Positions 11,683-24,135 of a DNA stretch of 64,000 bases are shown piece by piece. How positions within the stretch are numbered: position 1 is the stretch's first letter; every line of letters begins with the position of its first letter. The notes beneath the pieces are model-generated. The model was not told where the DNA came from, did no database searches, and saw only the letters and a program-made list of their open reading frames with translations. The position numbers were made by a program, and so were the translations under genes. Source of the DNA: Geodermatophilus telluris (GTDB taxonomy: Bacteria; Actinomycetota; Actinomycetes; Mycobacteriales; Geodermatophilaceae); assembly GCF_900102745.1 (NCBI RefSeq), contig NZ_FMZF01000004.1, forward strand, positions 372,001 to 436,000. Reading direction: 5' to 3'.

Positions 11683-13428
11683 TCAGCGCAGCCGGCGGCT
11701 GGCGTCGGGCAGCCGCTCGGTCACCCCGCGCGCGTCGAGCCACTCCATCAGCGGCACGGCCACGCGCCGCGACGTCCCCCAGGCCGCCCGGGCCTGGCCG
11801 AGGGTGAACGGCGCCGGCACGGCGGCCAGCCGCGCCCGCGCGTGCTCCTCCACCCCGGGCGCCAGGTAGACCCCCTCGGCCACCCGCACCAGCTGCCCGT
11901 CGCGCACCGCCGCCGCGAGTTCGCGCGGGCCCAGCCGGGCGGCGCGCAGCTCCTCGGCGTCGGGCGCGGCGAACGGGTCGTCGGCCAGCCGGGCGCGGAC
12001 GGCGTCGACCGCCCGCTGCACCGCCGCCGGCAACCCCGCGGCGGCCACCACGACCCGTCCCTCGCGCAGCGCCAGCGGCGTGCGGACGACGAGCGCGACC
12101 AGGTCGTCGGTGGGCAGGCCCAGCTCGCGCCGGACGACGGCGACCGGCGGGCCCGGTTCCAGCGGGTGGGCCTGCCGGTGCGCGGCCACCAGCCCGGGCA
12201 CCCGCCGCGCCAGCTCGTCGACCACGCCGGGCGCGAGCAGCCACGGCCCGGCGCGGACGGCGTCACCGGGCACCGGCCAGCCCATCGCGGTGAAGTCGTC
12301 GGCGCGCACCACCCGGCGCCGGGCGAGGTCGGCGGCCGCACCGGCGGGCCCGGTGCCCTGCTCGTCGAGCTCGGCGGCGCGCTGCCGGGCCGCGCCGCGG
12401 CGGCGCAGCTCGGGCGGGGCGACGTCGCGGACGTCGGCGCCCAGCACCCGGCGGGCGCCGGGGTCGCGCAGCAGCACCCGGTCGCCCACGCGCAGCGGCA
12501 GCGGGCCGGCCAGGCGCAGTCGCACCGCGGTCCCCTCCAGCGGGCGCACCCGCACCGGCACCGCCGCCGAGCCGACGTGCAGCACCGCCTCGGCCGGCAG
12601 CCGCTCCTCCGGCTCGCGCGCCAGCACGACGTCGACCTCGGCCGTCGAGCGGAACGCGCCCGGGGTGAGCAGCGCGTCGCCGCGGCGGAGGTCCTCGACG
12701 GCGACGCCGCGCAGGTTGAGCGCCACCCGGGCGGTGGCGACCGCCCGGTCCACCGGGCGGCCCAGCGACTGCACACCGCGCACGCCCACCTCGCGACCGC
12801 CCAGCAGCAGCCGGTCGCCGGCGGCCACCGCGCCCGCGGCCAGCGTGCCGGTCACGACGGTGCCGGCACCGCGGATGGGGAACGCCCGGTCGATCCACAG
12901 CCGCACCGGTGCGTCGGGATCCGGTGCGGGCAGCCCGGCCAGCAGCGTCTCCAGGGCGGCGGCCAGCTCGGGCACGCCGCGGCCGGCCGGCGCGCTGAGC
13001 GCCACGCCCGGCACCGCGCCCATCGAGGTCGCCGCCAGCCGCTCGGTGGCGTCGGCGAGCACCGGCGCCGGGTCGGCGAGGTCGGCCTTGGTGACGGCGA
13101 GCAGCGCGTGCCGCACGCCGAGCGCGTCGAGGACGGCGACGTGCTCGGTGGTCTGCGCCGACCAGCCGTCGTCGGCCGCGACCACGACCAGCGCGGCCGG
13201 CACCGGACCGACGCCGGCCAGCATGTTGCCGACGAACCGCTCGTGCCCGGGGACGTCGACCACGGCGACCACCCGGCCCGAGGGCAGCGTCGTCCACGCG
13301 AAGCCGAGGTCGATGGTCAGGCCGCGGCGGCGCTCCTCCTCCCACCGGTCGGGCTCCATGCCGGTGAGCGCGCGGACCAGCGTCGACTTGCCGTGGTCGA
13401 CGTGCCCGGCGGTGGCGATCACCTCCAC
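11683..13428 (-). CDS. selB: selenocysteine-specific translation elongation factor SelB
   Basis: The 581-residue EF-Tu-like GTPase carries Sec-tRNA to the ribosome and binds the SECIS hairpin of selenoprotein mRNAs. The N-terminus reads IATAGHVDHGKST (G1), followed by RRGLTIDLGFAW (G2), DVPGHERF (G3) and VTKADL (G4). The C-terminal third contains the winged-helix repeats that bind SECIS RNA, ending APFTLGQARAAWGTSRRVAVPLMEWLD. The GTG giving VEVIATAG was chosen from the family N-terminus. It overlaps the selA stop by 10 bases; a second GTG two codons later gives a GTGA overlap. In this genome the tRNA partner reads UAG, so SelB must act at UAG codons. Confidence 0.95.
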   Translation of the reverse strand: MEVIATAGHVDHGKSTLVRALTGMEPDRWEEERRRGLTIDLGFAWTTLPSGRVVAVVDVPGHERFVGNMLAGVGPVPAALVVVAADDGWSAQTTEHVAVLDALGVRHALLAVTKADLADPAPVLADATERLAATSMGAVPGVALSAPAGRGVPELAAALETLLAGLPAPDPDAPVRLWIDRAFPIRGAGTVVTGTLAAGAVAAGDRLLLGGREVGVRGVQSLGRPVDRAVATARVALNLRGVAVEDLRRGDALLTPGAFRSTAEVDVVLAREPEERLPAEAVLHVGSAAVPVRVRPLEGTAVRLRLAGPLPLRVGDRVLLRDPGARRVLGADVRDVAPPELRRRGAARQRAAELDEQGTGPAGAAADLARRRVVRADDFTAMGWPVPGDAVRAGPWLLAPGVVDELARRVPGLVAAHRQAHPLEPGPPVAVVRRELGLPTDDLVALVVRTPLALREGRVVVAAAGLPAAVQRAVDAVRARLADDPFAAPDAEELRAARLGPRELAAAVRDGQLVRVAEGVYLAPGVEEHARARLAAVPAPFTLGQARAAWGTSRRVAVPLMEWLDARGVTERLPDASRRLR

Positions 13429-14729
13429 CCGGCGGCCACCTCCAGCACCGCGGCGGCGAGGTCGTCGTCGGACGAGGGCGGCACGCTGCGCAGGTCGAGC
13501 AGCGCGCGCCCGTCGGCCACGTACCCCACGACCGGGTGCGCACCGCGCCGCAGCGGCGCGGCGAAGGGCTCGGGCAGCGAGACCGCGGCGCTGGGCAGCG
13601 GGTGCTCGGGCGCCCCGCCGCCCCCGACGCGCGCGGCCGAGTCGACGGCGCGGGCGTCGACCCCGGCGCCGGCCAGCCGGGCGGCCAGCGCCTCGGCGCG
13701 GCGGCGCAGGACGGCGACGTCGGCGGCGAGCATCTCCGGCACCGGCGGCAGCGGGCCGCGCAGCGTCGCCTCCAGCGCGGCGAGCGTCGTCTTGTCCACC
13801 CGCAGCGCGCGGTACAGCGGGTGCCGGCGCAGCCGCTGCACCAGGTCGGCCCGGCCGAGCACCAGCCCCGCCTGCGGGCCGCCGAGCAGCTTGTCGCCGC
13901 TGGCCAGCACCAGGTCGGCGCCATCGGCGAGCGTCGTCTGCAGGTCGGGCTCCTCGGGCAGCACCGGGTGCGGGCGCAGCAGCCCCGAGCCGACGTCGGC
14001 CACCAGCGGCACCCCGGTCCCGGCGAGCGCCTCCGCCAGCGACGCCACCGGCACCGCCCGGGTGAACCCGCGGACGACGAAGTTCGACGGGTGCACCTTG
14101 AGCACCGCGCCGGTGTCCGGGCCGAGCGCGCGCGTGTAGTCCTCGAGCGCCACGCGGTTCGTCGTCCCCACCTCGCGCAACCGGGCGCCGGTGGCCTCCA
14201 GCAGCTCGGGGATCCGGAAGCCGTCGCCGATCTCGACCAGCTCGCCGCGGGCGATGACCAGCTCGCCGCCGAGCGCGGTGGCCACCAGCGCGAGCGCGGC
14301 CGCGCAGTTGTTCACCACCAGGGCCGCCTCGGCCGCCGGCACCGCGGCCAGCAGCGCGGCCAGCGCCGCCTCGCCGCGCGGCCCGCGGCGGCCGGTGCCC
14401 AGGTCGAGCTCGACGTCGGTGGTGCCGCTGGCGGCGACCACGGCCTCGACCGCGGCCGGCGACAGCGGCGCCCGGCCGAGGTTGGTGTGCACGACGACGC
14501 CGGTCGCGTTGAGCACCGGCCGCAGGCTCCCCGCCGTCGGCGGCAGCGCGGCCAGGACGGCGGCGACGGCGTTGTCGGGGTCCAGCCGCCCGTCGCGCAC
14601 CCGCTGCTGGACGCCGCGGACGGCGTCCTTGACCAGCTCGCGGCCCAGCCGGGCGCACGCGGCGGCCACCGCGGGGTCGGCGAGCAGCGTGTCGGTGCGG
14701 GGCACGGCCCGCCGCGGGTCGGCGCTCAT
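13419..14729 (-). CDS. selA: L-seryl-tRNA(Sec) selenium transferase
   Basis: The 436-residue PLP enzyme converts seryl-tRNA(Sec) to selenocysteyl-tRNA(Sec) using selenophosphate. Landmarks are VLNATGVVVHTNLGRAPLS (about residues 77-95), VVNNCAAALALVA, REVGTTNRVALEDY and the PLP-lysine motif SGDKLLGGPQAG. The ATG start lies 37 bases after the 3' end of the tRNA-Sec gene on the same strand, so tRNA, selA and selB probably share one transcript. The selB start overlaps the selA stop. Nothing is truncated. Confidence 0.96.
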   Translation of the reverse strand: MSADPRRAVPRTDTLLADPAVAAACARLGRELVKDAVRGVQQRVRDGRLDPDNAVAAVLAALPPTAGSLRPVLNATGVVVHTNLGRAPLSPAAVEAVVAASGTTDVELDLGTGRRGPRGEAALAALLAAVPAAEAALVVNNCAAALALVATALGGELVIARGELVEIGDGFRIPELLEATGARLREVGTTNRVALEDYTRALGPDTGAVLKVHPSNFVVRGFTRAVPVASLAEALAGTGVPLVADVGSGLLRPHPVLPEEPDLQTTLADGADLVLASGDKLLGGPQAGLVLGRADLVQRLRRHPLYRALRVDKTTLAALEATLRGPLPPVPEMLAADVAVLRRRAEALAARLAGAGVDARAVDSAARVGGGGAPEHPLPSAAVSLPEPFAAPLRRGAHPVVGYVADGRALLDLRSVPPSSDDDLAAAVLEVAAGWR

Positions 14730-14766: not shown

Positions 14767-14862
14767 TGGCGGAGGCGGACGGGAATCGAACCCGCCTGAC
14801 CGAGCTGCTCGGCCACGTCGGCTTTAGAGGCCGCGGGGGCCACCAGGCGCCCTGACGCCTCC
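14767..14862 (-). tRNA. selC: tRNA-Sec with anticodon CUA (reads UAG)
   Basis: The 96-base gene has a GGAGGCG/CGCCTCC acceptor stem, discriminator G73 and an encoded CCA end. The T-arm is GCGGG-TTCGATT-CCCGT. The variable arm is very long, 8 bp (TGGCCGAG/CTCGGTCA) with a CAG loop, and the D-stem is extended. These are selenocysteine-tRNA hallmarks. The anticodon loop reads CTCTAAA, so positions 34-36 are CUA (complement of 14825-14827), not the usual UCA; E. coli has CTTCAAA here. The tRNA sits between selA and selD. It should insert selenocysteine at UAG. Such tRNAs are known from Geodermatophilus and Blastococcus. Confidence 0.95.
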
Positions 14863-14885: not shown

Positions 14886-15903
<1,018 letters not shown>

Positions 15904-15908
<5 letters not shown>

Positions 15909-16041: not shown

Positions 16042-16617
16042 ATGAGGACGAGGACGGCCGGCCGGGCACTGACCGTGCTGCTGGCCACGGCGGCGATGGA
16101 GACCGCGGCGGGGACCGCGGCCGCGGCACCTCCCGAGGGCGCCGGCACCTACACCGCCTACCGCGGGTGGGCGCTGTTCACCGGTGGCGACGGCCTCGTC
16201 GCGGACGTGACCGTCGAGGAGGAGCGGGGCGCGGGGACCGTGGTCCGGTTCGCGCTGTACCGCGAGGGCCTCTCCTGCACGGTCGACGGCGAGGACGTGG
16301 CCGTCGCGGAGGTCGACCGGCTGGACTCGGCCCGCCTGGAGGTGTCCTACGACTACACCTGCACCGCGGCGGACGACGGCTCGCAGGGCCTGGCGCCGGA
16401 GTCCCTGACCGGGACGGTGGACGTCGACCTGACCTGGACCGGGGTCGGTAGGGCGGAGCGGCAGCCCCTCTACGACTGCACCGTCGGCCTCTCCCTCTCC
16501 CGCGAGGCGCTCGTCTCCGGGGGCGTCTCGCTGACCGGTGACCTCGCGGCCGAGCTCGACCTGGACAACGGCGGCCTGTCCCACGACAACGTCGCCTGCC
16601 CACCCGGCCGGGTCTGA
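16042..16617 (+). CDS. secreted hypothetical protein with a signal peptide
   Basis: The 191-residue protein begins with a classical signal peptide (MRTRTAGRALTVLLATAA, cleavage probably after TAAAA near residue 32). The mature part of about 155 residues is rich in Thr, Val and acidic residues, as in extracellular beta-sandwich proteins. It contains four Cys (contexts LSCTV, YTCTA, YDCTV and VACPP) that could form two disulfides. I recognise no family. The ATG follows an AGGAGGA ribosome-binding site by 6 bases. It stands as a single gene between two terminators. Confidence 0.8.
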   Translation: MRTRTAGRALTVLLATAAMETAAGTAAAAPPEGAGTYTAYRGWALFTGGDGLVADVTVEEERGAGTVVRFALYREGLSCTVDGEDVAVAEVDRLDSARLEVSYDYTCTAADDGSQGLAPESLTGTVDVDLTWTGVGRAERQPLYDCTVGLSLSREALVSGGVSLTGDLAAELDLDNGGLSHDNVACPPGRV

Positions 16618-23136: not shown

Positions 23137-24135
23137 CTAGCGGAGGCCGCGGGCGGCCCGGCCGGTGACCGCACGGATGGCGACGATGCGGCGGACCGCC
23201 CGCTCCAGCGCGTAGTCGGCGCTCGCCGCCACCCCCTTGACGTCGGCGTTGAGCTCGGCGGCCACACCGATCGCCTGCTGCAATCCGTCGATGGTCCACC
23301 CGCGGGCCTGGGTCTGGGCCTTCTTCACCTTCCACGGCGGGAGCTTGAGCGCCCGGGCGAGCTCGCCGGTGTTGCTGGTGTTCAGCGAGGCGACCCGCGC
23401 GGCGGTGCGGACGCCGTCGGCGATGGCGTCGGCGACGAGCACGTGGGCCACCCCGCGGTCGAGCGCCCAGCGCAGCATCTCCAGCGAGCCCTGCCGGTCG
23501 CCGACGAGCACCCGCTCGGCGACGGTGAAGCCGGTGACCTCGGCCTGACCGCGGTGGAAGCGCGCGACGGCGTCGGCGTCGATGGTGCCGCCGAAGTCGG
23601 CGACCAGCTGGGTGGCCGCCGAGGACAGCGCCCGCAGGTCGGCGCCCACCGCGTCGACCAGGGCGGTGAGCGCGTCGGTGGTGATCCGGCCGCCCGCCGC
23701 CCGCACCTCGTTGCGGACGAAGGCCGCCCGGTCGCTGGCGGAGGAGATCTTCGGGCAGTCGTCGACGGCCGCGCCGGCGGCGGTCAGGGTCTTGAGCAGT
23801 GCCTCGTTGCGCTTGCCGCCGTGGTGCACGACGACCAGCGTCAGGTCCGGGTCGGGGTCGGCGCAGTAGCTGGTCAGGGCGTCGACCAGGGCCCCGGCGG
23901 CCTCGTGCACGCCGCCGACGACGACGAGCCGGTGGCCGCCGAACAGCGAGGGCGCCAGGACGTCGGCCAGCTGACCCACCGGCAGGCCCAGCGCGGCCAG
24001 CTCGTGCACCTCCGCGTCGGGGTGGCGCTCGAGGACGGCGGCCCGCACGGCGGAGACGGCGCGGGCGCGCAGCAGCTCCTCCTCGCCGACGACGGCCCGC
24101 AGCCGGGAGGTCGGTGCCGGGGGTGCCGCTGTCAC
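23137..24135 (-). CDS. holA: DNA polymerase III subunit delta
   Basis: The 332-residue clamp-loader subunit opens the beta sliding clamp. Typical features are the N-terminal VVGEEELLRARAVSAVRAAV, LFGGHRLVVVGGV, a PDLTLVVVHHGGKRNEALLKTL stretch, and the C-terminal helical collar with LNTSNTGELARALKLPPWKVKKAQTQARGW. The GTG start lies 12 bases after the expected comEC stop. comEA-comEC-holA is the conserved actinobacterial order. The gene ends in TAG. Confidence 0.95.
   Translation of the reverse strand: MTAAPPAPTSRLRAVVGEEELLRARAVSAVRAAVLERHPDAEVHELAALGLPVGQLADVLAPSLFGGHRLVVVGGVHEAAGALVDALTSYCADPDPDLTLVVVHHGGKRNEALLKTLTAAGAAVDDCPKISSASDRAAFVRNEVRAAGGRITTDALTALVDAVGADLRALSSAATQLVADFGGTIDADAVARFHRGQAEVTGFTVAERVLVGDRQGSLEMLRWALDRGVAHVLVADAIADGVRTAARVASLNTSNTGELARALKLPPWKVKKAQTQARGWTIDGLQQAIGVAAELNADVKGVAASADYALERAVRRIVAIRAVTGRAARGLR

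Follow-up and report, generated by a model that had tools for sequence, protein, structure and literature searches.

A tRNA gene that combines the fold of a selenocysteine (Sec) tRNA with the anticodon CUA raises the question of whether Geodermatophilus telluris reads UAG, a stop codon, as Sec. We examined the 64-kb stretch of DNA that contains this gene (herein, the window), the rest of the genome, related genomes at the level of family and order, and a genome collection described as covering 84,980 species. The features discussed below are compiled in Table 1.

Table 1. Coordinates and model scores of features of the G. telluris Sec system and of a Coriobacteriia-labelled contig
Feature	Location	Strand	Model match	Remarks
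selB, Sec-specific elongation factor	window 11683-13428	-	TIGR00475, 270.2 bits	581 aa, stop TGA
selA, Sec synthase	window 13419-14729	-	TIGR00474, 418.5 bits	436 aa, stop TGA
tRNA-Sec gene	window 14767-14862	-	Rfam RF01852, 65.3 bits; ARAGORN anticodon cta	anticodon CUA at 14825-14827, CCA encoded
selD, selenophosphate synthetase	window 14886-15908	+	TIGR00476, 374.8 bits	340 aa
Formate dehydrogenase (FDH) alpha subunit	L015 9851-13228		NF041513, 1910 bits	contig other than the window's; TAG at codon 216, end stop TGA
UAG-Sec features (CUA tRNA-Sec, selA, selB, yedE, grdA)	L185 2319-2795, 4293-7693

The tRNA gene and its sel neighborhood

The preliminary description called the 96-nt gene a tRNA-Sec with a CUA anticodon, named its hallmarks and proposed a covariance-model fold, all of which stood up. 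The Rfam covariance match exceeded the gathering score of 47 bits (E = 4.7e-11), and the CUA lies within the anticodon loop CTCTAAA (14823-14829). The Rfam alignment gave a D-stem of 6 bp with a UGGU loop, folding gave a variable arm of 8 bp, and G73 is encoded as well as the CCA. None of 200 shuffled sequences folded as well (z = -2.8), and a pattern built from the D-loop, anticodon and T-loop had a single match in the window and none in 100 shuffles. Five named loci have an identical tRNA sequence, including those of G. tzadiensis DSM 45416 (L142) and Geodermatophilus sp. LHW52908 (L114). Elsewhere in the window, ARAGORN called a tRNA-Pro (cgg) at 16083-16167 (-), which is absent from the Rfam matches at gathering score and is probably a false call.

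All three sel genes are full-length, score above the curated cut-offs and flank the tRNA gene, as had been described. selA shares the strand of the tRNA and lies downstream of it after a gap of 37 nt, with selB next, while selD is divergent across a gap of 23 nt and has a GGGCACK motif (identified by eye) without a stop codon. Covariance search of the G. telluris genome (4.8 Mb in 12 contigs) returned 17 matches at E 10, a single one of them over the cut-off. A second tRNA-Sec, with UCA, would weigh against a UAG code; none was found over the cut-off in the 12 contigs, and the best seven of the 16 weaker matches were other tRNAs, i.e., tRNA-Ser (three), Leu, Thr, Met and Gly.

A formate dehydrogenase gene with an in-frame TAG

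Searching the genome for PF00384 yielded six rows, and an in-frame TAG was present in one protein, which accounted for two of them. This protein is the FDH alpha subunit, the gene in which the preliminary description suggested looking first for a TAG at the Sec position with a hairpin after it; both were found there, and the Sec codon of this Sec-type FDH is TAG, not TGA. The codon lies in the context ENQARI-U-HSATVPGL, and the gene is followed, on its own strand, by an ORF (L015 13251-14315) that by eye resembles an iron-sulfur subunit. The window, L015 and L016 were also scanned for coding signatures, which flagged the FDH TAG and one other, antisense to another ORF, and no interior TAG in the window. 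FDH was the one UAG selenoprotein gene found in this genome among the families searched (FDH, UGSC, AhpC-type and AhpD-type); the UGSC, AhpC-type, CMD/AhpD and AhpD-like (P0003) searches recovered no TAG gene.

The hairpin GGTGCCC-GGTCT-GGGTGCC directly follows the FDH TAG. Across 14 of 30 loci, chosen to be distinct, 98% of cells were paired vs 30-64% in slid versions, and five cells, all in one pair, had changed on both sides, a value reached by none of 500 shuffles. Two of the five covariation measures in these 14 loci (pairs with both-side change and further pair types) were not above shuffles, and folds of single sequences were no better than shuffles of this GC-rich sequence (z = -1.2 to 0.25). 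The loop codons GGT-CTG were invariant in all 47 family FDH loci examined, and GGT makes up 8 of the 106 Gly codons in the FDH gene. Because single folds and two measures matched shuffles, the case for this SECIS hairpin rests on the remaining covariation measures and codon invariance, i.e., its conservation is supported comparatively and not by single folds. In a Cys homologue of FDH (G299, L267), with TGC at the Sec site, the loop codon GGT is replaced by GGC, giving GGC-CTG.

Distribution of TAG and TGA at the Sec site

Within the Geodermatophilaceae, a search for tRNA-Sec gave matches with E of 1e-8 or lower in 109 of 112 genomes, although the weaker of these matches may include tRNA-Ser. 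Anticodons at the best 30 loci were CUA in 22 and UCA in 8. Seven of the UCA loci represent the genera g5, g6 and g7 (L018-L023, L026; seven of nine genomes read, the other two being G067 and G071 in g5 and g7), one locus per genome, and the eighth is from Geodermatophilus sp. LHW52908. The FDH query had 127 match rows in 100 of the 112 genomes. TAG was present in all 118 rows that cover the Sec site, and it stood exactly at the Sec codon in all 47 loci examined, with about 910 open codons beyond it. No FDH match at E 1e-100 was found in the nine genomes of g5-g7. Some FDH rows have extra stops, which were considered as double recoding and rejected; in the family loci examined they fall 187-225 codons ahead of the Sec codon, no later than the probable start.

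We drew 298 genomes from the order, 203 of which had FDH matches. Among the best 150 rows, 95 came from outside the family; 94 of these had TGA (three also TAG, and three also TAA) and one had no stop. Thirteen of these 95 were read, chosen to include odd rows, and their Sec codon was TGA in 12, with the loop GGTCT, AGTCT or AGTTT, and TGC in one. One of the 12 (G321, L271) has an extra TAG eight codons before its TGA Sec codon, which may reflect a sequencing error, decay or another cause. The best 30 tRNA-Sec in the order included 29 from outside the family, all with UCA.

In a SelA tree of 42 rows picked by the analyst, less three dropped for short coverage (L025, L124, L212), the 21 CUA rows formed one clade (100/100), corresponding to one change, and three family UCA rows formed a separate clade whose placement is unsettled. 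The sequences nearest to the window SelA were those of Geodermatophilus, and that of G. tzadiensis DSM 45416 (G064) was 94% identical to it. The anticodon-loop closing pair also differed between the two types. Among 149 tRNA-Sec sequences, in which some genomes are represented twice, it was C-G in all 112 with CUA, including the Coriobacteriia-labelled L185 described below, vs one of 37 with UCA, the other 36 having U-A.

Further putative UAG selenoproteins were found in the family. An AhpD-like CxxU protein (P0003) had matches in nine of the 112 genomes, all with TAG, located at the U of CFYU in three and of CHYU in six (L094 6089-6697 (-); L225-L233). A GGTC motif lies at equal distance from the TAG in all nine genes, four of which adjoin the tRNA-Sec (G064, G057, G058 and G093); the hairpin in the one gene folded was not above shuffles. 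At the UGSC motif, TAG occurs in two genes of G024, in G001 and LHW52908, and in one of the three genes of G087, whose remaining two have Cys; UGSC searches in UCA genera gave matches in G066 and G072 with no stop. Among AhpC-like genes, that of G024 has TAG, and that of the UCA genome G070, a match below the family cut-off, has TGA, in each case at an active site that is plausible by eye. A 2026 review of prokaryotic selenoproteins names AhpD-like and CMD-like CxxU families, and its text contains no word starting with Geodermatophil (PMC13188914).

Annotation pipelines that look for in-frame TGA had been predicted to miss such genes or to split them at TAG, and this prediction held. Among the best 120 FDH relatives, 98 were 863-912 aa long without the Fe4S4 domain (PF04879) at 76-94% identity, and the remaining 22, with the domain, were 1,071-1,088 aa long at 64-66% identity; N-terminal FDH pieces are too short to appear in this comparison. 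The shorter 98 include records under the names Geodermatophilus, Blastococcus and Modestobacter. Similarly, 28 of 32 matches to P0003 were pieces of 111-133 aa, shorter pieces being unable to appear. The practical loss is that databases store most close relatives of the two UAG selenoproteins checked as pieces.

One Geodermatophilus strain, LHW52908, carries both types of tRNA-Sec. Its sel locus is of the usual kind, CUA tRNA-Sec included, and its FDH and UGSC genes have TAG. In addition, a UCA tRNA-Sec (81.8 bits; L017 1168-1263 (-)) lies near the end of contig C17 and, divergent from it, an AhpD-like gene whose CFYU motif has TGA (L017 1579-2157 (+)) and the hairpin of which was not above shuffles. 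A single SelB over the cut-off was found. The UCA tRNA-Sec was probably acquired, because none of the other 148 tRNA-Sec compared exceeds 83% identity to it. Contamination is less likely, because the same contig at 20-29 kb resembles a congener (G054), with scattered matches of which the longest is 3.2 kb at 85%; it is still conceivable, because the tRNA sits at the contig end amid ORFs that look by eye like transposases. We hypothesize that this strain decodes both UAG and UGA as Sec.

The pattern scan of the genome collection returned 95 matches, 86 of them labelled Geodermatophilaceae. Because the pattern demands TGGT in the D-loop, other CUA lineages may be missed. Three further matches (L111, L121 and L148) have a tRNA-Sec together with SelA or SelD 78-91% identical to those of the window. 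Rejected as CUA tRNA-Sec were L120, L163, L181 and L188, ordinary tRNAs by Rfam, and L138, which is no tRNA; at L180, where the match lies at the locus end, ARAGORN called no tRNA.

Another match, L185, lies on a contig of a metagenome-assembled genome labelled Coriobacteriia, with 35% GC over the 8 kb examined. Its CUA tRNA-Sec scored 64.2 bits and is accompanied by genes for a glycine reductase component C subunit, trxB, a thioredoxin-like ORF (by eye), grdA, yedE, selA and selB. The predicted GrdA aligned over the full length of the NF040748 model (1-151; 274.6 bits), and its residue 44 corresponds to TAG, in the context CFV-U-TSAGAMDLENQ; folding after this TAG gave no convincing SECIS. 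The component C gene (82-984) ends in an ordinary terminal TAG. SelA of L185 is 34% identical to that of the window, and L185 apparently represents a UAG-Sec lineage independent of the Geodermatophilaceae. Titles and abstract openings on UAG-encoded selenocysteine, a survey outside of which most subscription journals fell, mentioned no second UAG lineage and no dual-codon strain.

We tentatively propose, with slightly less than even confidence, that UAG became a Sec codon at least twice, in the CUA clade of the Geodermatophilaceae, while other genera of that family keep UCA, and independently in the organism of L185, and that LHW52908 then gained a UCA tRNA-Sec along with a selenoprotein gene using UGA, coming to read two stops as Sec with a single SelB.

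Probable decoding of UAG as Sec and comparison with known systems

For G. telluris itself, Sec is likely inserted at UAG because the sole tRNA-Sec over the cut-off has CUA and FDH has an in-frame UAG where other families have UGA. The idea that some UAG codons are read as Sec had been put forward from the tRNA, and the FDH TAG, the hairpin after it and the lack of a second tRNA-Sec over the cut-off all support it. On this genomic evidence we are highly confident that the CUA tRNA-Sec would deliver Sec to the in-frame UAG of the FDH mRNA, aided by SelB and the hairpin. In the proposed mechanism, SerRS would charge the tRNA with serine, SelA would convert the seryl form using selenophosphate made by SelD, and SelB would bring the Sec-tRNA to the ribosome at UAG only where a SECIS hairpin (loop GGUCU) follows. 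With insertion confined in this way, other UAG codons would keep terminating. An ancestor of the CUA clade is envisaged to have switched its Sec codons together with the anticodon, which went from UCA to CUA, while retaining the SECIS. By a composition rule the window holds 32 gene-like ORFs, of which 30 end in TGA, one ends in TAG and one continues past the window edge; TGA is also the stop of selA and selB, which are outside this set. A possible advantage of UAG would be less competition with termination, because UGA ends 30 of the 31 gene-like ORFs that have a stop.

The scarcity of terminal TAG (one of these 31) and the presence of a UAG-reading tRNA would also fit a general sense codon following loss of RF1. 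We regard such a reassignment as very improbable, since TAG is still the terminator of one gene-like window ORF (23137-24135 (-)) and, in the related LHW52908, of selB, and since in-frame TAG in the family genes examined is the Sec codon. Equally improbable is that the tRNA is a relic and FDH is broken at TAG with nothing inserted. Decay of this kind is at odds with a TAG in every family FDH row covering the site, at one and the same codon in the 47 loci with their long open frames beyond, and with the conserved SECIS loop and the full-length selA, selB and selD. In addition, work by Mukai in 2016 is said to have described the UAG-decoding tRNA-Sec of Geodermatophilaceae and 75Se labelling in relatives.

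ARAGORN names the gene tRNA-Pyl (cta), and a pyrrolysine tRNA would share the CUA anticodon, with UAG then standing for pyrrolysine. This is the least probable of the alternatives, as the gene has an 8-bp variable arm (that of tRNA-Pyl has three nucleotides; PMC7609411), matches the tRNA-Sec covariance model unlike tRNA-Pyl, and sits between sel genes, and as UAG occupies the Sec codon of FDH.

Decoding of UAG as Sec has a precedent, and the preliminary description was right to point to one in this family and genus. Three Geodermatophilaceae genomes with a CUA tRNA-Sec and FDH and UGSC selenoproteins are credited to Mukai et al. in a published account (PMC5330540), in which Sec-TAG is also given for an AhpC of B. 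saxobsidens DD2. As UAG-encoded Sec was already reported in the Geodermatophilaceae, the window is a further member of the published system. It is alike in family, CUA anticodon and TAG at the FDH Sec codon, and no different in kind, although searches of the G. telluris genome recovered neither a UGSC nor an AhpC-type gene with UAG. The comparison across the order makes testable how a recoded stop changes identity, as lineages with UGA, UAG or Cys within that order can be compared for one FDH gene and one kind of SECIS; the codon switch is placed in a single clade, and both states may coexist in one strain. Relative to the canonical UGA-Sec system (SelA, SelB, SelD, tRNA-Sec with UCA, and SECIS), the window has the same genes and the same tRNA fold, whereas the canonical tRNA-Sec has UCA and a U-A loop-closing pair, and that of the window has CUA and C-G.
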